Both the position numbers and the translations under genes were made by a program. DNA of 64,000 nt from Sorangium aterium (lineage in GTDB: Bacteria > Myxococcota_A > Polyangia > Polyangiales > Polyangiaceae). The notes beneath the pieces are model-generated. The model was not told the origin of the DNA. It did no database searches and worked only from the letters and a program-made list of their open reading frames with translations. The stretch is taken from assembly GCF_028368935.1 (NCBI RefSeq), contig NZ_JAQNDK010000005.1:558001-622000 (forward strand). The letters run 5' to 3'. Shown here piece after piece: positions 43,574-53,869 of this stretch (positions are counted from its first letter, which is position 1; each line of letters opens with the position of its first letter).

Positions 43574-43803
43574 GAACTGTTTCACCTCGGAAGGGGCAGG
43601 GCGGCCATCAAAGCGCAGGGGGCGCCGCAGCGCAAGGCTCGCCTCGGAGCCGGGAATGCGCGCGGAACGCGCGCGACGGCGATGCACGTCAGGGGCGAAG
43701 CGGCACCCGTGCGGGCTCGACGCATGGAGCGGATGGGCGAGAGAGGACCGGTGAGGGAGCAGGGGAGAGGAAGAGAGAGCTCTTGGCGCGGGAGCTGGAG
43801 CGA

Positions 43804-43908
43804 GAGGAGCGGCTGCCGGCGTGGGAGGATCGGGCGCGGGAGCGGGAGGATCGGCTGCCGGAGTGGGAGGATCGGGCGCCGGAGCGGGAGGATCGGCTGC
43901 CGGAGCGA
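43804..43908. repeat. Five 21-bp tandem repeats at the island edge
   Basis: Units starting GAGGATCGG (first unit GAGGAGCGG) begin at 43804, 43825, 43846, 43867 and 43888 and alternate between two slightly different forms, so the real period is 42 bp. Both strands are open across the array (acidic/basic or Pro/Leu peptides), but neither product looks like a protein. The rest of 43574-44170 shows no convincing gene. The repeats sit at the transition to lower-GC DNA. Confidence 0.85.
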
Positions 43909-44170
43909 GAGAACGGCGCCCGTAGGAGGACTTATGCTTTCGGGCTCAGCTGCCGAGCTTGTCGAGACGGCTGCCTGCACCGGCCCGCAACAGCATGGAC
44001 GCGCTCTGGTCCGAGGCGATTGATGCCGGTCCCCGTCAGGATCCCATGATGACGTTGCCTGGGAAGCGGTATACTGTGCGGCGACAATGCGGCATTATCG
44101 AAAGGATCAGGCGGGAAACGACGATCTCGTCAGCTTTGCCGGCTTCACGCCCCCGAGAGGATGACCCACC

Positions 44171-45214
44171 GTGGAAACATCGTTTGCTCCCTCCAAGATC
44201 CAAACGAAACAAATTAAACACCCCCGGGCCTGGGATGGAAAGAGCCTGACCAAGGACGATGTTGCCTTCGATCTCGGGCCCAGACACCTGGAGGCCTTCG
44301 ACCGCGTGATCCGGGAAGCCCGGAGACGCAGCGTCACGCTCGAGAACGCTTCCAACGAGGATTTTCAGCTCGAGGACATCCAGGGCGATGTGCAGCTCAT
44401 CGCCGACAGGATCCTGAATGGCCGCGGCGTGGTCATCGTCCGCGGATGGCCGATGGACCGCTGTACGGAAGCGGAGATCGCTCTCCTTTACTGGGCATTG
44501 GGCAAGCAATGGGGAGAGCCCATCGTTCAAAGCTGGAAAGGGGATCGTCTCGGCTATGTGACCGATGTTCCCCAGCTGGTACCGGGGACGCGGGGCAAAG
44601 GTTTCACCTCCGAGAACGCGCTGACGCTCCATACAGATTACGGTGGCATCATGGGGCTGATGGCCATCCGGCGGGCCAAATCGGGGGGATTGAGCGGCCT
44701 GGCCAGCGGAATAGAGATTCATAACCGCATCGCCGCCACGCATCCGGAATATCTGGCGCCGCTGTACGAGGGCTACTATATTTACTGGACGGGCAACGAG
44801 AAAAAGGGTGAGCGTCCAATCAACCTCGACTACCGCGTGCCCCTTTTCAGCGAGCTCGACGGGCAGGTCAGCGTTTCTTTCATGAACAGAAGGGTCGTCG
44901 AGCAGGCAGCCGCGGAGCGAAAAGAGCCGCTCACGGAGCTGCAGCGCGAGGCGCTCGAATACTTTCATGCCGTCGGGGATGAACTGAAATTCACCTTCAT
45001 GCTGGAAGCGGGCGAGGCGTTGTTCGTCAACAACTACGCCATTCTGCACGACCGCGCTCCCTTCGAGGACTGGCCGGAACAGGAACGCCGCCGCTTTCTC
45101 CTGCGGCTGTGGCTGAGGACCTCCCAGGAAAAGCAGCCGGTCCATTCGAGCGTCCGTCGTTTTTACGACATAATGGCTGGAAATTTCTCCCCACCGCCGG
45201 CGAAATTGATTTAG
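44171..45214 (+). CDS. TauD/TfdA-family Fe(II)/2-oxoglutarate dioxygenase, copy 1
   Basis: This 347-residue enzyme has the HxD of the facial triad in LTLHTDYGG, the distal His probably in NYAILHDRAPFEDW and the 2-oxoglutarate-binding Arg in RRRFLLRLWLR. GRGVVIVRGWPMD is the usual N-terminal strand pair of the family. The family hydroxylates or desaturates small molecules. The start is GTG at 44171 after GAGAGG. It is paralogous to the next gene (46 bp downstream), with conserved blocks such as FDLGPRHL, HPEYLAPLY and WPEQERRR/WPEVERRR. The substrate is unknown. Context suggests tailoring of an amino-acid-derived product. Confidence 0.88.
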   Translation: METSFAPSKIQTKQIKHPRAWDGKSLTKDDVAFDLGPRHLEAFDRVIREARRRSVTLENASNEDFQLEDIQGDVQLIADRILNGRGVVIVRGWPMDRCTEAEIALLYWALGKQWGEPIVQSWKGDRLGYVTDVPQLVPGTRGKGFTSENALTLHTDYGGIMGLMAIRRAKSGGLSGLASGIEIHNRIAATHPEYLAPLYEGYYIYWTGNEKKGERPINLDYRVPLFSELDGQVSVSFMNRRVVEQAAAERKEPLTELQREALEYFHAVGDELKFTFMLEAGEALFVNNYAILHDRAPFEDWPEQERRRFLLRLWLRTSQEKQPVHSSVRRFYDIMAGNFSPPPAKLI

Positions 45215-45260
45215 TGGCAATTGGCCGTCTTGCCCTGCAACCTTCACGCGGGAAAGCGAC

Positions 45261-46283
45261 ATGTCCAACAGCCTTGCAAGGTACACTGGCCATCCCGGGG
45301 CCTGGAGAGCCTCGGACCTGACGAAAGAAAAAATCTCCTTCGATCTCGGGCCCCGGCACCTGAAGGCGTTCGAAAAGATCATGGAGGAGGCGCGGAAACG
45401 CAACCTCACGCTCCGGACCGCTTCCGAGAGCGATTTTCCTCTCGTCGAGATTCACGACGATATCCGCCGGATCGCCGACGAAGTTCTCCACAGGCGCGGC
45501 GTCATCATCATCCGCGGCTGGCCGGTCGAGACCTATACGCCGGAGGAAATGGGATTGTTGTTCTGGGCCGTGGGCAAGCAGCTCGGAGTGCCGGTCGAGC
45601 AGAGCCATCACGGCGACCGGCTGAACCAGGTCATCGATCGCGGGGGCGGGCGGGCCTACAACTCCAATATTCCCCTGGACATGCACAGCGACTTCGGCGC
45701 GCTGGTCGGGCTTCTGGCGATCCGCAAGGCCAAGCTGGGCGGCCACAGCGGAATAGCGAGCGCCCTCGCCATTCATGACAAGATCGTCGAGACCCATCCC
45801 GAATATCTCGCCCCGCTCTATGCCGGTTACTACGTCCATTGGCAGGGAGAGGAGGCGAAGGGGGAGCGGTCGCTGATAACCGATTACCGTGTTCCGGTCT
45901 TCAGCGAAGTCGAGGGCCAGCTCAGCGTCTTCATGGTCAAGCCGTTCGTTGAGCAGGCCGCGAGGAACAAGGAAATGACCCACCTTCAGCGGGACGCGCT
46001 CGACTATTTCCAGCAAGTCGCCGACAGCGACGAGTTCGCCTACAAGTTCATGCTGGAACCAGGAGAAGCATCGTTGATGAGCAACTACACGGTCCTTCAT
46101 TCGCGCTCCACCTTCGAGGATTGGCCCGAAGTCGAGCGGCGCCGGCTCCTCCTGCGGCTCTGGCTCAAGCTGCATCCCGGGGACCGCCGTCCCCTCCATC
46201 CCGATTTGCAACGCTTGCAGACCCATGACGGGTTCTACGTGTCGGCCAAGAACGGCGAAGCGCCGCAGGCACCGGCCGCGTGA
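45261..46283 (+). CDS. TauD/TfdA-family Fe(II)/2-oxoglutarate dioxygenase, copy 2
   Basis: This is a 340-residue paralogue of the preceding enzyme with all ligands kept: HxD in LDMHSDFGALVG, distal His in NYTVLHSRSTFEDW and Arg in RRRLLLRLWLK. The extended YYVHWQGEEAKGERSLITDYRVPVFSE block aligns with copy 1, so the pair arose by duplication. Both keeping their catalytic residues argues for two distinct oxidations rather than decay. The ATG at 45261 follows GGGAAAGCGAC. The gene ends 25 bp before the fusion gene, consistent with a three-gene operon. Confidence 0.88.
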   Translation: MSNSLARYTGHPGAWRASDLTKEKISFDLGPRHLKAFEKIMEEARKRNLTLRTASESDFPLVEIHDDIRRIADEVLHRRGVIIIRGWPVETYTPEEMGLLFWAVGKQLGVPVEQSHHGDRLNQVIDRGGGRAYNSNIPLDMHSDFGALVGLLAIRKAKLGGHSGIASALAIHDKIVETHPEYLAPLYAGYYVHWQGEEAKGERSLITDYRVPVFSEVEGQLSVFMVKPFVEQAARNKEMTHLQRDALDYFQQVADSDEFAYKFMLEPGEASLMSNYTVLHSRSTFEDWPEVERRRLLLRLWLKLHPGDRRPLHPDLQRLQTHDGFYVSAKNGEAPQAPAA

Positions 46284-46308
46284 CGGAACCTCTACCTGGA
46301 AGGCGTCG

Positions 46309-48438
46309 ATGATCGACCTGGCAATCGTCGGACTTGGGCGGTGGGGCACCTTCCTCGTGGATGCCGTGCAGGGCGTCAGCCCCAAGGTCCGTTTTGCCGC
46401 CGCGGTCAGCCGTACTCCCGGACGCATCGAACAGGCGGCCGCCTCGCGGGGAATCAAGGTCCTCGCCTCGCTGGAAGAAGCGCTGGCCCAACCGACGATC
46501 GCGGGCATCGTACTCGCCACACCCCATTCCCTCCATGCCGCGCAGATCGAGGCCTGCGTCCGCGCGGGGCGCCCCGTTTTCGTCGAAAAGCCGTTCACGC
46601 TCACCTCCTCCAGCGCGGTGCAGGTCTCCGCTGCCGCATCGGCGGCGGGAGTCGTGGTGGCCGCGGGGTTCAACCGTCGGTTCCTTCCCGCGATGCGCAA
46701 ACTGAAGAGCGTCGTCGGGGAGGGCCGCCTGGGCACCCTTCGTCACATCGAATGCAACTTCACCGCGAACCTCATCGGGCGATTTTCCCCCGGGCAATGG
46801 CGATTGACAGCGGAGGAGAATCCGGCGGGCGGCTTCGCCGGGGGTGGCATTCATATGATCGACGCCATTATCCATCTCGGCGGACCCGTCGCCGGCGTGT
46901 TCGCGGCGGGCTCCTCGCGCATTCCGGCCCTGGAGCCTCTTGAGGACACCGTCTCCGCCCGCCTCACCCTGGCCTCCGGAGCCACGGCCTCGGTGACGAC
47001 GATGATGGCCACGGCGCCGACATTTCGCCTTCAGGTATTCGGGACCCAGGGTTCCGCGGAGATCCGTCGCCCGGACACGCTCGAGATCGTCGACCTTACA
47101 GGCAAAGGCGGTCCCCTTTCCTTTGAGGCTGTTTCCACGGAGCGCGCCGAGATCGAGGCTTTTGCCGATGCCATCTCCGGAGAGGCCCCGTATCCCATTC
47201 CCATGGACGAGGTGCTCAACGGCGTGGCGGCTTTCGAAGCCATTGGCCGATCCCTCTCCACGGGCGGCCCTGTTTCCATTGCTGAGGGTGGATGCCTTGA
47301 AATTGGAGTGAAGCGCCGACACGACCACTACATGCTCACGCCGGGGCCCCTTACGGTCCCGACGGAGATCCGTAAGACGATGCTGCTCGACCGGAACCCC
47401 TACGCGGGCGACTTCGTCGACATGACCGCTGCGATCCGCCGCTATCTGCTCGAGATCGCCAACGGCCCGGAGACGCATGCCTGCGTTCCCCTGCAAGGCA
47501 GCGCCAGCTACGCCATCGAAGCGGCCATGCAGACCCTGGTGCCGCGTACCGGCACGATCCTGATCGTGCAGAATGGCTTCTACGGAAGCCGGCTCAGGGA
47601 AATCGCCGAGGGCATTCGCCTCAAGGTCACGACCCTCGACCTTCCGATGCTGCCGCTACCAACGCGCGAGGATCTCGAAAGAGCCCTCGACGCCGACCCC
47701 TCCATCACGCACATCGCCATGTGCCACGCGGAGACCGGCACCGGCGTGCTCAATCCGGTCGAGATGGTAGCGGAAGTGGCCCGGTGCAGGGGCAAGCGCC
47801 TCATCATCGATGCCGTCGCTTCCTTCGGCGGCTTTCCCATCGACGTGGCCACGCTCGATCTCGAGGCGCTCATCATCTCTCCCAACAAATGCCTGGAAAG
47901 CGTCCCGGGCATCGGCCTCGTCCTCGTCCACAAAGGCTCCCTGGCCGCCTCGGCGGGCAGGTCCATGTCGCCTTCGCTCGATCTCCATGCCCAATGGAGC
48001 ACGATGGAAAAGAGCGGCACCTGGCGCTGGACGCCGCCAACCCACGTCGTCGCGGGCCTGGCCAGGGCCTGCGAACGACACCGGCGGGAAGGCGGCGTGG
48101 CCGCCCGCGGGGCACGTTACCGGCGCAATTGGCGCATCCTGATCGACGGCTTCCGCCAGTGGGGATTCCGGACCTTGATCCCCGACGAGGTGGCCATCCC
48201 CATCATCGCGACCTTCCATGTTCCCGAGCCGTTCGCGCATGACTTCCGGCCCTTGTACGAAGCGCTGGAGCGGCGCGGGATCACCATCTTCCCGGGACGG
48301 CTGACCGCCGCCGGGACGTTCCGCATCGGTGTCATGGGCGATCTGGTCGAATCGGACATCCGCATGATCATGAACGTCATCCGCGAAGTCCTCGGCGAAA
48401 TCGACTCGCGCTACAAGGACCTGCCGCGGATCAGCTAG
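46309..48438 (+). CDS. Fusion of Gfo/Idh/MocA oxidoreductase and PhnW-like class V aminotransferase
   Basis: This is a 709-residue bifunctional protein. Residues ~1-340 are a Gfo/Idh/MocA dehydrogenase: Rossmann motif AIVGLGRWGTF, VEKPFTLTS with the catalytic-type EKP, and GGGIHMIDAIIHLGGPV. Residues ~343-709 match 2-aminoethylphosphonate-pyruvate/serine-glyoxylate aminotransferases: LTPGPLTVPTEIRKTML, HAETGTGVLNPV, DAVASFGGFPID and the PLP lysine in SPNKCLESVPG. The join is short (about CLEIGVKRRHDHYM). A transaminase fused to an NAD(P)-dependent reductase suggests handling of a keto or imino intermediate. The ATG at 46309 follows GGAAGGCG. It converges with the ATP-grasp gene by an 8-bp overlap. 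Confidence 0.9.
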   Translation: MIDLAIVGLGRWGTFLVDAVQGVSPKVRFAAAVSRTPGRIEQAAASRGIKVLASLEEALAQPTIAGIVLATPHSLHAAQIEACVRAGRPVFVEKPFTLTSSSAVQVSAAASAAGVVVAAGFNRRFLPAMRKLKSVVGEGRLGTLRHIECNFTANLIGRFSPGQWRLTAEENPAGGFAGGGIHMIDAIIHLGGPVAGVFAAGSSRIPALEPLEDTVSARLTLASGATASVTTMMATAPTFRLQVFGTQGSAEIRRPDTLEIVDLTGKGGPLSFEAVSTERAEIEAFADAISGEAPYPIPMDEVLNGVAAFEAIGRSLSTGGPVSIAEGGCLEIGVKRRHDHYMLTPGPLTVPTEIRKTMLLDRNPYAGDFVDMTAAIRRYLLEIANGPETHACVPLQGSASYAIEAAMQTLVPRTGTILIVQNGFYGSRLREIAEGIRLKVTTLDLPMLPLPTREDLERALDADPSITHIAMCHAETGTGVLNPVEMVAEVARCRGKRLIIDAVASFGGFPIDVATLDLEALIISPNKCLESVPGIGLVLVHKGSLAASAGRSMSPSLDLHAQWSTMEKSGTWRWTPPTHVVAGLARACERHRREGGVAARGARYRRNWRILIDGFRQWGFRTLIPDEVAIPIIATFHVPEPFAHDFRPLYEALERRGITIFPGRLTAAGTFRIGVMGDLVESDIRMIMNVIREVLGEIDSRYKDLPRIS

Positions 48439-49303
48439 GACGTATCGCCGCCACGATGGCGTCCGCCAGCGCATTTGCCGACGCGGGGACCATGTCGAGA
48501 TAGAGCGCGGGATCGATGACCTCAATCTCCATCAGGACAAACTGGCCACCGCGCAGGATGCCGTCGATCCGCGCGTAAACGGGACGACCAGAAACATGCC
48601 GCAAGACCTCCTCCGCGGCCGCCACATGCTCCTTCTCGGGAACGACGAGCACCGGAGCAAGCGGGCGGTAGCGCCCGTTTACCCGAAAATCGTCGGGATT
48701 GGGACGCTTCCTCACGCCATGGGCGAAATGTCCGTCGATGAACACGAGCGACAGTTCGCCTTCGCGGATTTCCGGCATGAATTCCTGGAGCAAGAGATCG
48801 CTCCGGCCCGTCTCGGCGCGCAGGGCCTCGGCCTGCGCGGCCACCTGGTGGCGCTCAACGAGGGTCACGCCCACGCCGCTCTCCCCGATGCAAGGCTTCA
48901 AGACGAGCCGATCTCCAGGAATTTGGGACGCCGTGGTTTCTATCTCTGGATCTTGATCGACGATGCGCGTGACCGGGCAGGGTACTCCGTGGGCGATGAG
49001 GTCCAGCAAATACCGCTTGTTCGAGTTCCACAGTAGCACGTCGACTTCATTGATCACGGGAATGGCTTCGTCCCGCAATCCGTGGAGCCATCGGAAGAAT
49101 TTCTCACTCTGTTCCGTGTAGTCCCATACGGAGCGGACCACCACGCCCGCCGCATGGCCTTTTGCCTCCTCCTGCGGTTCGATCTGGTCCCAGGGACGCA
49201 AGACGGTCTCCACGCCCCGATGTTCCAGGGCCTTCTTGAGGGCCAGATCGCAGCCGATTGCCTCGGGAGGGATCTTTGCGCAGGTCGCCAGTAGCAGCTT
49301 CAC
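48431..49303 (-). CDS. ATP-grasp ligase
   Basis: This is a 290-residue enzyme of the RimK/glutathione-synthetase-like ATP-grasp group. Visible blocks are the central SNKRYLLDLIAHGVPCPVTRIV, RLVLKPCIGESGVGVTLV with a glycine-rich loop, LLLQEFMPEIREGELSLVFIDGHFAHGVRK, DFRVNGRYRPLAP and the metal-binding VLMEIEVIDPALYLD. Such enzymes activate a carboxylate with ATP and couple it to an amine or thiol. The start is a GTG overlapping the stop of the NAS-like gene (GTGA), so the two are translationally coupled. The probable role is amide formation on the NAS-like product, by context. Confidence 0.88.
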   Translation of the reverse strand: MKLLLATCAKIPPEAIGCDLALKKALEHRGVETVLRPWDQIEPQEEAKGHAAGVVVRSVWDYTEQSEKFFRWLHGLRDEAIPVINEVDVLLWNSNKRYLLDLIAHGVPCPVTRIVDQDPEIETTASQIPGDRLVLKPCIGESGVGVTLVERHQVAAQAEALRAETGRSDLLLQEFMPEIREGELSLVFIDGHFAHGVRKRPNPDDFRVNGRYRPLAPVLVVPEKEHVAAAEEVLRHVSGRPVYARIDGILRGGQFVLMEIEVIDPALYLDMVPASANALADAIVAAIRPS

Positions 49304-50163
49304 GGCACACCCTGCTTCTGGTCGACGGCGGCAACCACGCCCGGCTCGCTTCCATCGTGTCGCTCGAGAAGCACGGCGTCATAGACCGCGCCGGTATAGA
49401 TGAGCGGGGTGACGTGCCAGGACCCGGAGAACTCCTTGTCGAACGGATAGTTGCAGAGCGATTTGATGCCGTTGCCGTAGCGAAGGATGATCTTCGCCTG
49501 CCCGTGCATCTGGCTGCCCAGTTGCCGAAGAACGGCGGCCTTCTCCTTGACCAGTGAGGCGATGATGAAATGGCTCGCCTGTCTGACCCAAGGGATCGAT
49601 TCGAGCGGACGGCAGCTACACCGGATCCGCTCCGCCAGCCCCTGATGCATGACAAGCTTTTCCGCGAGACGGGTCGCTTCAGGATCGATATCGTGACACA
49701 GCAACTCCGCCTCACTCTCCCGGGCGAAGAGCAGCGCCGTGACGGGCAGCGCCCCGGCCCCTATGAAAACAATCCTCGATTTCGGGCCTATCCCGGAGGC
49801 CGCCAATTCCGCCCGGAACGACCTCCGAAACTCCGTGTAAGTCGCGTCCAGATAGGCTTCCAGAGGCAAGGTTCCCTCTGCCGGTCGCTGGCAAAGGTGG
49901 CGGGAATGGTTCTTTTCCAGGTCGCAGAGAGCGCGATCCAGGACATCGCGAAGCATCGTGGCCTCGTGAAGAAGCTCGAGATCGCCTTCCCAGCGCCGCC
50001 AGCACGAGGCGTTCTCCGCGTTCATGACGAACTGGCGAACGGAGCCCAGCTTCTTTTCCAAGGGATCGAAATTGCCGCAACGGTCGGCCTCCTGGCGAAG
50101 CTCTTCAAGCTCTGAGCTCAGGGCACGTAATTCAGCCAAGAAAAGATGCTTGTTTGATTGCAT
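49300..50163 (-). CDS. Nicotianamine synthase-like enzyme
   Basis: The protein has ~287 residues. The C-terminal Rossmann domain has the nicotianamine-synthase pattern: RIVFIGAGALPVTALLFA, CHDIDPEATRLAEKLV, a variant of the FLAALVG strand (HFIIASLVKEKAAVLRQLG) and KIILRYGNGIKSLCNYPF. The N-terminal ~110 residues are helical, as in NAS and in CntL-type enzymes of staphylopine synthesis. The family transfers aminocarboxypropyl groups from S-adenosylmethionine to amines. The start at 50163 is chosen over TTG/ATG codons up to 50217, which lack a ribosome site. No opine dehydrogenase of the CntM type or exporter is adjacent. Confidence 0.82.
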   Translation of the reverse strand: MQSNKHLFLAELRALSSELEELRQEADRCGNFDPLEKKLGSVRQFVMNAENASCWRRWEGDLELLHEATMLRDVLDRALCDLEKNHSRHLCQRPAEGTLPLEAYLDATYTEFRRSFRAELAASGIGPKSRIVFIGAGALPVTALLFARESEAELLCHDIDPEATRLAEKLVMHQGLAERIRCSCRPLESIPWVRQASHFIIASLVKEKAAVLRQLGSQMHGQAKIILRYGNGIKSLCNYPFDKEFSGSWHVTPLIYTGAVYDAVLLERHDGSEPGVVAAVDQKQGVP

Positions 50164-50876
50164 GAGCCTTCTCGCCTGAAACCGTGCTGGGGAGATGTGT
50201 CGGAGGTTGGGCATCAACGATGTGGTCTACGACCGGGGTCGCTTCGGCGCCCATGGGCGTTGACCGTGGGTGTCCGGAGTAGCTTTGGGGGCGGCGCTTC
50301 TGGAGCGAGAGCGTTTTGCTCATTTCGCTCGGCGCAGCTTGGGTCGAGGCGGCGGCAGCGGTGAGGGGACATCGCCCCCTGCATAACGTGCACGGTGCGT
50401 TCGGTCATGCTCCTGCTGCAGGTGGAACGCCCAGCAGGCTTCGAAGTCGCCGCTCGAGCGCAGCGAGTGGAGGCGCAGCGCCGGCGCGGCGCGCGCCCTC
50501 CGGTCCGGGGAGGTGATCACGCTTACGGATGGCTCGGCCGGGGAGCCCAGGTCGCGCCCCCGCCGCTGGACCCCTGTCTCTGTCGAGGAGACACCTGGTC
50601 CTGCCGGGGCGACAGCTCGCTCGAGGCGACGGGCTCGCGAGGGGGCCGGAAGAAGCGTTCCTCCCGCTCATGCGCGTCGACGATCCGCGGGGGCGAGCGC
50701 CGCCCCGACCCGGCACGTGCGTTGCTGAAGGCTGGAGAGCTGAAGAACGAAGCGTCGCTGACGAGGCCCGCTGAACGCCCTCTGACGACGGAGGGCGGGA
50801 GCGCGCGCCAGCGCAAGCGATGCATGTCCCCTTCGCGCGTCACTGCGGCGGGCGAAGCGAAAAGGAGGGTAGCGGA
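50164..50876. other. Divergent intergenic region, no gene seen
   Basis: This ~710-bp region lies between the divergently transcribed NAS-like and protease genes. GC rises back to the genomic level within it, so the right edge of the acquired segment is here. Short frames on both strands have no ribosome site or recognisable product. Promoters for both flanking genes must be here, but no clear -35/-10 pair or palindrome stood out. Confidence 0.5.
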
Positions 50877-52640
50877 ATGAGGATTGAACCGATGACTCAA
50901 AAGCATGTTCGCCGACGGCGCTGGCTGTGTCCCTTGCTGGCGCTGCCGCTGGCCGCCTGCGCGGCCGACGCCAGCGAGGCGGGCGACTTCGAGGAGACGG
51001 CCCAGGTCGCATCGCCGATCGTCGACCCGACGCCGGCGGGGCCCAGCGATCTGCTCGCGATGGTGAAGGTGTCGACCTCGCACGGGAGCTGCTCGGGCAT
51101 GGTCATCGCTGCGGACACGGTCCTCACCGCCGCGCACTGCTTCTGCGAGGATGGCTACGTCGGCGACAATGCCTGCTCCACGGACGCGACGGTGACCTTT
51201 CGCCCCGATCCGGCGACGCCGGGCGCGCGCCCACGCGTGCTGAGCGGCGTGGCCAGGATCCAGCCGGACTACAACCCGTCCTGGACCGAGAGGCAGATCG
51301 AGCATGACGTCGCGGTCATCAAGCTGAATGGCGTCGCGCCGGCGCACGTGAAGCCCTTCGTCGTGGCCAACGATTACCCCGGCGAGGGATCGCGCGTCAC
51401 GATCGCCGGCTTCGGGCGCACGGGCGCCGACTGCAGCACCCCCTTCGGCACGCTGAACTTCGACGCCGCCGTGGTCGGCGGGTACGAGGATGGCCACGAC
51501 ATCCTGCGCTTCAACGACCAGGTCTTTTGCAGCGGTGACTCGGGCGGGGCCGTCTTGAACGTCGAGGCGAGCCGGCTCTACGCCGTCCACTCGATGCACA
51601 CGTGGACGGTGACCCACGGCTGGGTCAGCAAAGGGGTCACGACGGGCTCCGAGTTCGACTGGATCAAGTCGCATATGTGCCCGTCGTCACGCTCGAACCA
51701 GTGCAGCGGCCACGGCGACACGTGCGACTGCTCGGCCAGCACCAACTTGCTGTGGCGGCACACCAACGGCCAGGTCGCCATCTGGTTCATGGACGGCGGC
51801 GACATCGTCGGCGAGGCCTACCCCGGCGGCCAGGATCCGAGCCTCTCCTGGAAGATCCAGGGCTCCGGAGACTTCGACGGCGACGGCCAGAGCGACGTGC
51901 TCTGGCGGCACACGAGCGGCCAGGTCGCCATCTGGTTCATGGATGGCGGAGCCGTCGTCGGTCAGGCCTACCCCGGCGGCCAGGACCCGAGCCTCTTCTG
52001 GAAGGTGGCTGGCGTCGGTGATTTCGACGGCGATGGGCGCTCGGACGTCCTGTGGCGCGACGCCAACGGCCAGCTCGCCATCTGGTTCAAGGGCGACGCC
52101 GCCCAGGCCGCCTATCCCGGCTACAACAACCAGCCCGCGCCGGTCGACAACGCGTGGAAGGTGCAGGGCGTCGGCGACTTCGACGGCGATGCGCGCTCAG
52201 ACATCCTGTGGCGAAACACGAACGGTCAGGTCGCCCTCTGGTTCATGTCGGGCGGGACGCGGGTGGGCGAGGCCTACCCCGGCGGCCAGGACCCGAGCCT
52301 CTTCTGGAAGGTGCAGGCCATCGGCGACTTCGACGGCAACCTGCGCTCGGACATCCTGTGGCGGGACGAAAGTGGCCAGCTCGCCATCTGGTTCGGCGGC
52401 GAGCAGGGCTTCGACTCGCCCTCATACAACAACGCGCACGGGCCCGGCGACCTCGCATGGCAGGTGCAGGGCGTCGGCGACTTCGATCACGATCGCCGCG
52501 ACGACATCGTCTGGCGGCACACGAACGGCCAGGTCGCCATCTGGCTGATGCACGGCGCGCACTTCGTCGGGGACCTGTACCCGCGCCAGGTCGACAGCGG
52601 CTGGGCGATCAAGGGCATGCTCCACGACGCCGGGCGGTGA
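50877..52640 (+). CDS. Secreted trypsin-like serine protease with six FG-GAP/VCBS-like repeats
   Basis: This is a 587-residue protein. A signal peptide with a possible lipobox (LLALPLAAC) precedes a chymotrypsin-fold protease (about 45-290). The triad is His in VLTAAHCFCED, Asp in EHDVAVIKLN and Ser in CSGDSGGAV. The Asp six residues before the Ser, predicted for trypsin specificity, is not obvious. Residues ~305-587 hold six repeats with GDFDGDGQSDVLWRH and GQVAIWFMDGG cores, calcium-binding propeller blades of the FG-GAP/VCBS type. AAGGAGGG lies 8 bases before the ATG at 50877. It is a typical predatory or degradative exoprotein, transcribed alone. Confidence 0.92.
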   Translation: MRIEPMTQKHVRRRRWLCPLLALPLAACAADASEAGDFEETAQVASPIVDPTPAGPSDLLAMVKVSTSHGSCSGMVIAADTVLTAAHCFCEDGYVGDNACSTDATVTFRPDPATPGARPRVLSGVARIQPDYNPSWTERQIEHDVAVIKLNGVAPAHVKPFVVANDYPGEGSRVTIAGFGRTGADCSTPFGTLNFDAAVVGGYEDGHDILRFNDQVFCSGDSGGAVLNVEASRLYAVHSMHTWTVTHGWVSKGVTTGSEFDWIKSHMCPSSRSNQCSGHGDTCDCSASTNLLWRHTNGQVAIWFMDGGDIVGEAYPGGQDPSLSWKIQGSGDFDGDGQSDVLWRHTSGQVAIWFMDGGAVVGQAYPGGQDPSLFWKVAGVGDFDGDGRSDVLWRDANGQLAIWFKGDAAQAAYPGYNNQPAPVDNAWKVQGVGDFDGDARSDILWRNTNGQVALWFMSGGTRVGEAYPGGQDPSLFWKVQAIGDFDGNLRSDILWRDESGQLAIWFGGEQGFDSPSYNNAHGPGDLAWQVQGVGDFDHDRRDDIVWRHTNGQVAIWLMHGAHFVGDLYPRQVDSGWAIKGMLHDAGR

Positions 52641-52678
52641 GCTGTCGAGCAGGGGGCCTCGGCCGCCCGGGTCCCCTC

Positions 52679-53869
52679 TCACAGGTGGGCGCCGCTGACG
52701 AGATCGTCGATCTCGCCGGGCGCAAACCCCACCAGATCGGGCTCGGCCGAGAGCGCCACGCCGAACCGATCGAGCACGCCTCGCCGCACGCGCCGCGCGA
52801 GGCCGAGCAGCTCCTCCGCCGTCGCGCCGCCGCGGTTCACAAGCGCGAGCGTGTGGCGCGTCGAGATGCCCGCGGCGCCGTGGCGCGTCCCCTTCGTGAA
52901 GCCGGCGCGCTCGATCAGCCAGGCCGCGGACAGCTTCACCCGGCCGCCGTCCGCCGGATACCGCGGGATCGCCTCGCCGGGCGCGAGCACGCCCGCCACC
53001 TCGATGCGGGTGAGGACGGCCGCCGCGACGTCGGGCGCGAGCGTCGGGTTCATGAAGAACGACCCCGCGCTCCGGCCGTTCTCGTCCGCCGGATCGAGCA
53101 CCATCGACTTGCCGCGGCGGAGCGCGATCACCGTGCGGCGCACCTCGCCGAGCGGCGGCGCGGCGCCCCCCGCGGGCACGGCGAGCGCCCGCTGGAGCTC
53201 GGGGTAGCGCACCGTCGCGGCGCCCCCCGGGCGCAGCGCGAACGTGACGGCCGTGATGACGTACCGCCCGCGCCACGCGCGCTTGAACCGGCTGTCGCGG
53301 TAGCCGAAGCCGCAGTCCGCGCCGGAGAGGACCACGGCCGCCCCCGTCGCGCGATCGATCGCCCGGACCTCGACGATCGTCTCCGCGACCTCCTGGCCGT
53401 ACGCGCCCACGTTCTGGATCGGCGTCGCGCCGACGTCGCCCGGGATGCCCGACAGGCACTCGATACCCGCCCAGCCCTCGGCGACCGAGCGCGCCACGAG
53501 GTCGTCCCAGGCCTCGCCCGCCCCCGCGCGCACTAGGGCGCGCGCGGCCTCCGCGTTGCCGCCGGCCTTTGCGCTGCCGCCGGCCTCCGCGCCGTCGGTC
53601 TCCGCGCCGCTGGCCACCCCGCGCCCGCGCAGCAGCTCGATCCCGCGGACGCGCACGCGCAGCACCAGCGCGTCGACGCCCCGGTCCGCGACCAGCAGGT
53701 TCGAGCCGCCGCCCAGCACGAAGAGCGGCACGCCGCGGGCCTCGGCGAAGCGGAACGCGTCGACCACCGCGGCCTCATCGGCGGCCTCGGCGAAATAGCG
53801 CGCAGGCCCGCCCACGCCGAGCGTCGTGAGCGCGGCCAGCGGGACGGACTCGCGGACGTCGAGGCTCAC
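52679..53869 (-). CDS. murB: UDP-N-acetylenolpyruvoylglucosamine reductase
   Basis: MurB, 396 residues, is the flavoenzyme reducing UDP-GlcNAc-enolpyruvate in peptidoglycan synthesis. The FAD domain is LTTLGVGGPARYFAEA, FVLGGGSNLLVAD and GIECLSGIPGDVGATPIQNVGAYGQE (in part). The active site has GYRDSRFK and the proton-donor Ser in GRSAGSFFMNP. A ~25-residue Gly/Ala insertion (around 95-120) is unusual. The start is a GTG overlapping the stop of the upstream giant gene (GTGA). MurB is normally in the dcw cluster, so its location behind a transglutaminase-like gene is notable. Confidence 0.93.
   Translation of the reverse strand: MSLDVRESVPLAALTTLGVGGPARYFAEAADEAAVVDAFRFAEARGVPLFVLGGGSNLLVADRGVDALVLRVRVRGIELLRGRGVASGAETDGAEAGGSAKAGGNAEAARALVRAGAGEAWDDLVARSVAEGWAGIECLSGIPGDVGATPIQNVGAYGQEVAETIVEVRAIDRATGAAVVLSGADCGFGYRDSRFKRAWRGRYVITAVTFALRPGGAATVRYPELQRALAVPAGGAAPPLGEVRRTVIALRRGKSMVLDPADENGRSAGSFFMNPTLAPDVAAAVLTRIEVAGVLAPGEAIPRYPADGGRVKLSAAWLIERAGFTKGTRHGAAGISTRHTLALVNRGGATAEELLGLARRVRRGVLDRFGVALSAEPDLVGFAPGEIDDLVSGAHL

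Follow-up and report, generated by a model that had tools for sequence, protein, structure and literature searches.

The described opine metallophore loci (staphylopine, pseudopaline, and bacillopaline) contain a CntL-type aminocarboxypropyl (acp) transferase, and in these systems, as the cited survey text presents them, the gene for this nicotianamine synthase (NAS)-like enzyme is co-located with CntM and with transporters (PMC7438024). The same survey of bacterial opine-like zincophores began from CntM and, by its own account in that text, finds only CntM-dependent systems (PMC7438024). In plants, the mugineic-acid route consists, in the outline given by the source, of NAS, an aminotransferase, a reductase, IDS2, and IDS3 (PMC4191161). 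A 64 kb stretch of the Sorangium aterium genome (the window; the whole genome comprises 13.5 Mb in 7 contigs) carries a five-gene cassette that can be compared with both: a NAS-like, CntL-type acp transferase, an ATP-grasp ligase, two TauD-type 2-oxoglutarate (2OG)/Fe(II) dioxygenases (TauD1 and TauD2), and a fusion of a MocA/Gfo-Idh domain with a PhnW-family aminotransferase. The reading towards which we lean, without going so far as to call it probable, is that the cassette was acquired and directs the synthesis, through acp transfer, of a small molecule derived from amino acids.

Like the opine metallophore loci, the cassette holds a CntL-type acp transferase, recognized by sequence, predicted fold, and catalytic glutamate. 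Unlike them, it has no relative of CntM, of the FecB, FecCD, or Nik-type importers, or of the DMT exporter in the window (tblastn at E 0.01 with two CntM proteins and with transport proteins from annotated loci, confined to the window and with MFS exporters outside the test), and no racemase among its five genes; it adds an ATP-grasp ligase, two TauD proteins, and the MocA-PhnW fusion. With the plant route it shares the predicted kinds of reaction (acp transfer, transamination, reduction, and two 2OG hydroxylations). Its enzymes, however, belong to other families, its aminotransferase and reductase are fused, and its ATP-grasp ligase is extra, a likeness of logic only.

Central to this reading is the NAS-like protein, which is of the CntL kind. 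It reaches 83.6 bits (E 1.3e-23) on the CntL model NF033601, below the equivalog cut-off of 350, and matches solved CntL at E 8.1e-15, while its 39.9 bits on PF03059 compare with 238 and 231 for the plant-type NAS copies of the genus. In an alignment with 26 relatives from named genomes (27 proteins in all), Glu82 of the protein (A3 numbering; Glu101 of the long open reading frame, ORF) is kept in 27 of 27, and profile alignment places it on Glu81 of MtNAS and Glu84 of CntL, for which solved mutant structures exist (E81Q and E84Q). In MtNAS, according to the source text cited here, Glu81 together with Tyr107 takes the proton off the acceptor amine (PMC10491745); no counterpart of Tyr107 can be assigned from the profile alignment, in which the invariant Tyr103 of A3 is displaced by five columns. 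The structure predicted from the 27-protein alignment (mean pLDDT 88.6) has CntL as its best structural match (Z 30.1; 1.9 Å over 250 residues), followed by MtNAS (Z 24.5), with the best row besides these two at 16.0. Because the predicted fold is that of CntL and the catalytic glutamate is kept, aminocarboxypropyl transfer by this protein is likely. In the NAS tree, it groups with CntL-type proteins and separately from the other NAS-like proteins of the genus, on a long branch (1.26) of unsure placement, and only that separation is used here.

A protein devoid of transfer activity, or a silent cassette, would be in keeping with this long branch, with an 8-residue linker insertion peculiar to the window protein (A3 residues 94-97 and 105-108), with the replacement F236C of A3, and with the count of zero sigma-70-like promoters in the stretch, where terminator-like sites number 6 against 5.0 in shuffles. 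Nevertheless, of the 26 columns without variation among the relatives, 25, including the catalytic glutamate, are kept and F236C is the single exception, and all five reading frames of the cassette are open; we consider loss of function or silence very unlikely. Across the 48 columns conserved at >=90%, the window protein keeps 40 (83%); by the same measure, applied leave-one-out, the relatives keep 71-100%, with 24 of the 26 at 90% or more.

The preliminary description of this DNA had placed five genes at 44171-50163, in lower-GC DNA, around a NAS-like core coupled to the ATP-grasp gene through GTGA. Open reading frames and domain matches bear out the positions and strands (Table 1), the GTGA overlap is present at 49300-49303, and the core is confirmed by the PF03059 match, the CntL-type sequence, the predicted fold, and the catalytic glutamate. 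The lower GC is likewise real: the five genes have a GC of 0.593-0.660 and a GC at third codon positions (GC3) of 0.739-0.813, against a GC3 of 0.907-0.958 in three flanking genes (pheA, the murB-side ORF, and the 40838 ORF). Two claims hold in part. The labels NAS-like and transaminase were right at the level of the broad family, to be narrowed to the CntL kind rather than plant NAS and, for the transaminase half, to the PhnW family; and the island does contain the five genes, within an acquired stretch that is larger (~43.7-52.7 kb) and also carries a trypsin/FG-GAP gene (50820-52640), which is probably not related to the cassette.

Table 1. Features of the cassette and its surroundings (positions in the window), with the handles of the CntM-free Bacillota loci
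Feature	Position	Strand	Evidence and remarks
TauD1, 2OG/Fe(II) dioxygenase	44171-45214	+	PF02668 E 2.9e-24; HTD at 154, LHDR at 292
TauD2, 2OG/Fe(II) dioxygenase, tandem paralogue of TauD1	45261-46283	+	PF02668 E 4.5e-27; HSD at 142, LHSR at 279
MocA/Gfo-Idh + PhnW-family class V aminotransferase fusion	46309-48438	+	PF01408, PF22725, PF00266; start taken as ATG 46309, further in-frame start upstream at 46225
ATP-grasp ligase, DcsG/RimK-like	48431-49303	-	PF02955 and PF08443 above cut-off
NAS-like (CntL-type) aminocarboxypropyl transferase	49300-50163	-	PF03059 39.9 bits (cut-off 27.1), positions 115-243 of 276; longer ORF to 50217
Trypsin/FG-GAP repeat protein	50820-52640	+	PF00089, PF13517; inside acquired stretch
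Acquired stretch between pheA and murB	43690-52700	.	blastn against relatives; ends approximate, left edge possibly as far right as 43861
Bacillota loci with a CntL-type gene and no CntM match nearby			L045, L048, L054, L063, L067, L069, L078, L080, L086, L088, L089, L098, L099, L109

In two relatives from the genus, the blastn match to the window is interrupted: in G283 (L148) it stops at 43681 and resumes at 52711, across 88 bases of the relative, and in G284 (L150) it stops at 43678 and resumes at 52700, across 159 bases. The pheA gene (identified by domain matches) and the murB side (identified by PF02873 MurB_C), separated by ~9 kb in the window, are thus near-adjacent in both, for which reason the ~9 kb stretch carrying the cassette was most likely acquired from elsewhere. 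In a third relative, G285 (L151), the match reaches 43861, and its contig ends on this side of pheA; a 21/42-base tandem repeat occupies 43789-43911, at the left edge of the stretch. Since the trypsin/FG-GAP gene has a native-like GC3 (0.913), the stretch may stem from more than one event. The gap beside pheA is an insertion hot spot, with the cassette here, almost nothing in G283 and G284, and, in G282 (L149:4951-14130), another insert on the same side of pheA with a 3059-codon SpvB/RHS/TcdB-type frame.

The same layout bears on whether the five genes belong together or represent two unrelated operons that came to be neighbors, one a catabolic set of TauD-TauD-MocA/aminotransferase genes and the other the NAS/ATP-grasp pair. 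The two groups lie on opposite strands, the fusion has a GC of 0.66 compared with 0.59-0.62 for the other four genes, the pheA side of G282 holds a different insert, and some stand-alone TauD relatives sit amid apparently catabolic genes, as judged by eye and annotation. Yet the fusion and ATP-grasp genes converge tail to tail with an 8-base overlap of their 3' ends (48431-48438), base composition is similar across the cassette, and neither operon was found alone in the five other genomes of the genus, so that we rate two separate operons as unlikely, if well short of negligible. A single pathway is favored because of the GTGA overlap, the shared lowering of GC3, and the one continuous stretch missing from two relatives.

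Among named proteins, the ATP-grasp ligase is closest to DcsG, with 97.2 bits (E 9.3e-28) on the D-cycloserine synthetase model NF058666, where the cut-off of 360 is not reached, and with DcsG (6jil, E 3.9e-12) as its nearest solved relative; such scores identify it as DcsG-like, yet not as DcsG itself. DcsG acts in cycloserine biosynthesis, where it closes a ring. A Vibrio coralliilyticus plasmid (L125:2569-6858) carries a relative (34%) after a FecCD-type importer and a pseudoazurin gene, the importer being 39-47% identical to that of a V. lentus opine-metallophore locus; no NAS match is present at this plasmid locus. As a pointer to metal uptake the ATP-grasp gene was set aside as a hint only, the four other plasmid homologues, three of them judged by eye, having no such importer.

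The two TauD proteins share 53% identity over 291 positions, and both keep the HxD...H pattern; signature motifs of dioxygenases, aminotransferases, and Gfo/Idh proteins were read here from general knowledge of these families. For both, the best solved relative is FrbJ (TauD1 against 5eqn, E 2.6e-23; TauD2, E 1e-32), a dioxygenase of phosphonate antibiotic biosynthesis. This likeness is at family level and no proof of substrate, and a phosphonate specificity of the pair was rejected, genomic relatives occurring in mixed contexts (alone, apparently catabolic, and in one natural-product-like operon). The last of these, on a 38 kb Pantoea agglomerans plasmid (L123:1-8944), has annotated ThiF-like, TauD, GNAT, CapA, ATP-grasp, PurD, MFS, and amidase genes and has the appearance of a small cluster for a natural product. 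The TauD encoded there is 33% identical to TauD2, and the ATP-grasp protein has no match to that of the window. Among the five other genomes of the genus, TauD2 has 31-35% matches in four and none in the fifth. Elsewhere in the source genome, contig C6 has a piece of about 50 codons (G000:C6:358928-359074, L129:5935-6075) that shares 53% identity with the C-terminal region of TauD2; its surroundings show no other TauD match, and it is probably a remnant.

In the fusion, EKP at 93 and GGGIHMID at 178 mark the Gfo/Idh domain, and SPNKC with the pyridoxal phosphate-binding Lys527 marks the aminotransferase. The aminotransferase half passes two of three curated cut-offs for its family, with 412.1 bits on the 2-aminoethylphosphonate (2-AEP) transaminase model PRK13479 (cut-off 296), 380.2 on TIGR03301 (cut-off 360.8), and 381.4 on TIGR02326, under the cut-off of 400.8; its best solved relative is 7e7g (E 1.1e-97). 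The PhnW substrate, as given in the source text, is 2-AEP (PMC10574752). Compared with 24 stand-alone relatives (9 from the phylum of the window and 15 from Pseudomonadota), the fused half differs not only by its MocA partner: it keeps 79 of the 105 columns conserved at >=95%, whereas each relative, left out in turn, keeps 91-100%. The 26 altered columns speak for a changed substrate of the fused aminotransferase. Within the source genome, its next best match is 29% identical (E 2.0e-24).

About 770 kb from the cassette (G000:C5:1376820-1381718, L128:5320-10218), the same genome encodes a phosphoenolpyruvate (PEP)-mutase-like protein fused to a nucleotidyltransferase domain, together with a split phosphonopyruvate-decarboxylase-like pair, a second nucleotidyltransferase, and a CDP-alcohol transferase, possibly a phosphonolipid locus. 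The PEP-mutase-like fusion is found in three of the six genomes of the genus, namely the source genome and, at 92-96% identity, G282 and G284, the latter two without the cassette.

Alternatively, the cassette could make a phosphono-opine: the PhnW half would yield phosphonoacetaldehyde from 2-AEP, the MocA domain would couple it reductively to the NAS product in place of CntM, and the TauD pair would hydroxylate the phosphonate. The strong match to the 2-AEP transaminase model, FrbJ as best solved relative of both dioxygenases, the PEP-mutase-like and phosphonopyruvate-decarboxylase-like genes, and the mere 29% identity of the next aminotransferase in the genome are all in line with this. However, the PhnW-conserved columns are altered, the PEP-mutase-like protein stays below its model cut-off (292.1 bits against 319.55) and reads EDN..CS in the active-site stretch where the usual signature is EDK..NS, its locus also occurs in two of the five relatives, both without the island, the TauD relatives stand in contexts without visible phosphonate genes, and imine reduction by such a MocA domain is speculative. 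Because the aminotransferase is altered and no link joins the two loci, this proposal is ranked lower, and a phosphono-opine product seems improbable.

For the favored reading, an amino-acid-derived product built by acp transfer, a sequence of four steps can be envisaged. The CntL-type enzyme, judged by its fold, family, and catalytic glutamate, would move the 3-amino-3-carboxypropyl group of S-adenosylmethionine onto the amine of an acceptor amino acid; the coupled ATP-grasp ligase, by analogy with DcsG chemistry, would activate a carboxylate of the product to form an amide with a second amine or internally, for example as a lactam; the fused transaminase-reductase, in which the motifs of both halves are present, would turn an amine into a carbonyl and then an alcohol, or carry out a reductive N-alkylation; and the two TauD paralogues would hydroxylate two positions. 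Amidation by the ATP-grasp ligase and oxidation by the TauD pair are plausible by analogy, and a nicotianamine-like molecule that is made, amidated, and oxidized is a fair hypothesis. A more specific version, in which the cassette would be the bacterial equivalent of the mugineic-acid route, evolved out of unrelated families and leading to a hydroxylated, CntM-independent chelator, would have the CntL-type enzyme build a nicotianamine-like chain, the ATP-grasp ligase close or extend it, the fusion act as NAAT plus DMAS, and the TauD proteins act as IDS2 and IDS3; we regard it as quite unlikely.

Several observations weigh against these proposals. Given F236C, the 40 of 48 conserved columns, the linker insertion, and the long branch, the acceptor of the NAS-like protein may differ from that of CntL. 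PhnW works on the omega-amine of 2-aminoethylphosphonate, and a mugineic-type route would need an alpha-amino acid. Around six inspected TauD relatives (L123, L124, L127, and L162-L164), counterparts of the NAS-like, ATP-grasp, and fusion genes of the cassette are all absent; the closest relative (45%, in G297) stands alone, and that of L123 lies in the natural-product-like operon described above. A metallophore-type importer accompanies one of the five inspected plasmid ATP-grasp homologues (L186-L188 judged by eye). The window contains no Fur-like box (<=3 mismatches) and no GTTATNNNATAAC palindrome (1 mismatch), both being patterns that may not fit this phylum, and none of the tested importer or DMT exporter relatives. 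Furthermore, no second genome with the five-gene set was found in the samples described below, and hence comparison between genomes lends no support to a single shared pathway.

These samples comprised six genomes of the genus, 282 genomes of the phylum, 398 Pseudomonadota genomes, plasmid records, and viral contigs; the searches for the five-gene set were thus samples or pattern-based, and records near the source genome may be left out. Within the genus, the NAS-like protein is found in its own genome only, with 27-28% matches in four of the five others and none in one, and across the 282 phylum genomes nine have a match, including its own, the other eight being weak (E 8.9e-5 to 4.4e-4). No full-length relative of the fusion exists in the five other genus genomes, and none of the 965 plasmid records with a match covers 80% of it. 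Among the 398 Pseudomonadota genomes, also searched for the TauD pair, the whole fusion at E 1e-75 matched 39 genomes with 40 listed matches, two first-look candidates being scored per genome; all start at residue >=322 of 709 and cover the aminotransferase half only. With that half as query at E 1e-30, 55 of the 282 phylum genomes matched, and the MocA domain was absent at the nine loci checked. Altogether, no MocA-PhnW fusion was found in the sampled genomes or plasmids, TauD2 and the MocA half having been searched in less than the whole phylum.

A complementary view comes from 86 NAS loci with flanks of about 8 kb or less, 76 of them from GTDB contigs, five from plasmids, and five from this genus. 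The GTDB contigs were scanned with two short peptide patterns, which is not exhaustive, and no Staphylococcus or Pseudomonas loci were returned. None of the 86 loci has the ATP-grasp gene, a TauD gene, or the MocA domain, and one has a weak (24%) match to the aminotransferase half. CntM lies near NAS in 67 of them; the 19 without it are 14 Bacillota loci (13 Paenibacillus and one Psychrobacillus; Table 1), where a CntL-type gene appears by eye to be a lone gene, and the five loci of this genus. Viral contigs searched with the NAS-like, ATP-grasp, and TauD2 proteins gave no confirmed second copy, and plasmids searched with these and the fusion gave no linked set among 13 regions opened. The preliminary description had named a lack of co-occurrence elsewhere as grounds for refutation, and these searches found no second copy. 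The missing second copy weakens the idea of a recurring class and does not disprove a rare cassette, which searches of this sampled or pattern-based kind could have passed over; the cassette is so far a single case. A search of the open-access literature, with several query returns only loosely related, found no paper on such a cassette.

As for a role in metal handling, the preliminary description had noted the absence of CntM, exporter, and receptor, which stands within the window for CntM, FecB/FecCD, Nik, and DMT relatives and does not extend to MFS proteins; it had also implied a product that binds or moves a metal, a view that gained nothing from the search for importers, DMT relatives, and metal boxes. 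A metallophore role of the product is unsupported, because the window has no relative of CntM, of the tested importers, or of the DMT exporter and no metal box of the patterns sought. A normal opine-type zincophore pathway, with its dehydrogenase, importer, and exporter encoded at other sites of the genome, would agree with the grouping of the NAS-like protein among CntL-type proteins and with the prevalence of CntM beside the NAS loci examined. Set against this are the lack of CntM and of metal boxes in the window and the co-location of CntM, NAS, and transporters in known systems, as far as the cited survey text describes them (PMC7438024), and a zincophore pathway dispersed in this manner has, in our view, only a slight chance of being correct.

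The genus also holds other NAS genes. Four of the five other genomes (G283, G282, G284, and G285; loci L024, L022, L023, and L025) carry NAS proteins that are close to one another in the tree, those of L022 and L024 matching the plant-type family over nearly their whole length (PF03059, 231 and 238 bits). In L024 (3677-9217), the plant-type NAS has as neighbors a PhyH dioxygenase, a methionine aminotransferase, MtnA, MtnB, and ARD, and in L023 NAS occurs with ARD, MTAP, and an asparagine synthase; these methionine-salvage neighbors in L023 and L024 would recycle the methylthioadenosine released by NAS. As candidates for a nicotianamine pathway in bacteria that recycles its own by-product, these loci are a strong lead distinct from the cassette, and better founded than it. 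Plant-type NAS is absent from the source genome, where the only PF03059 match is the cassette protein. G284, which also has a plant-type NAS, contains a second, more diverged NAS-like frame (L021:7836-8723; PF03059 56.5 bits) on a very long branch.

The cassette is a tangible candidate for a system without CntM. Its tailoring enzymes did not occur as a set anywhere else in the data searched, and its fused transaminase-reductase is amenable to direct expression and assay. If the product chelates metal, the cassette would represent a further way to build nicotianamine-like molecules; if it is not a chelator, a CntL-type enzyme would have been recruited into other small-molecule chemistry.

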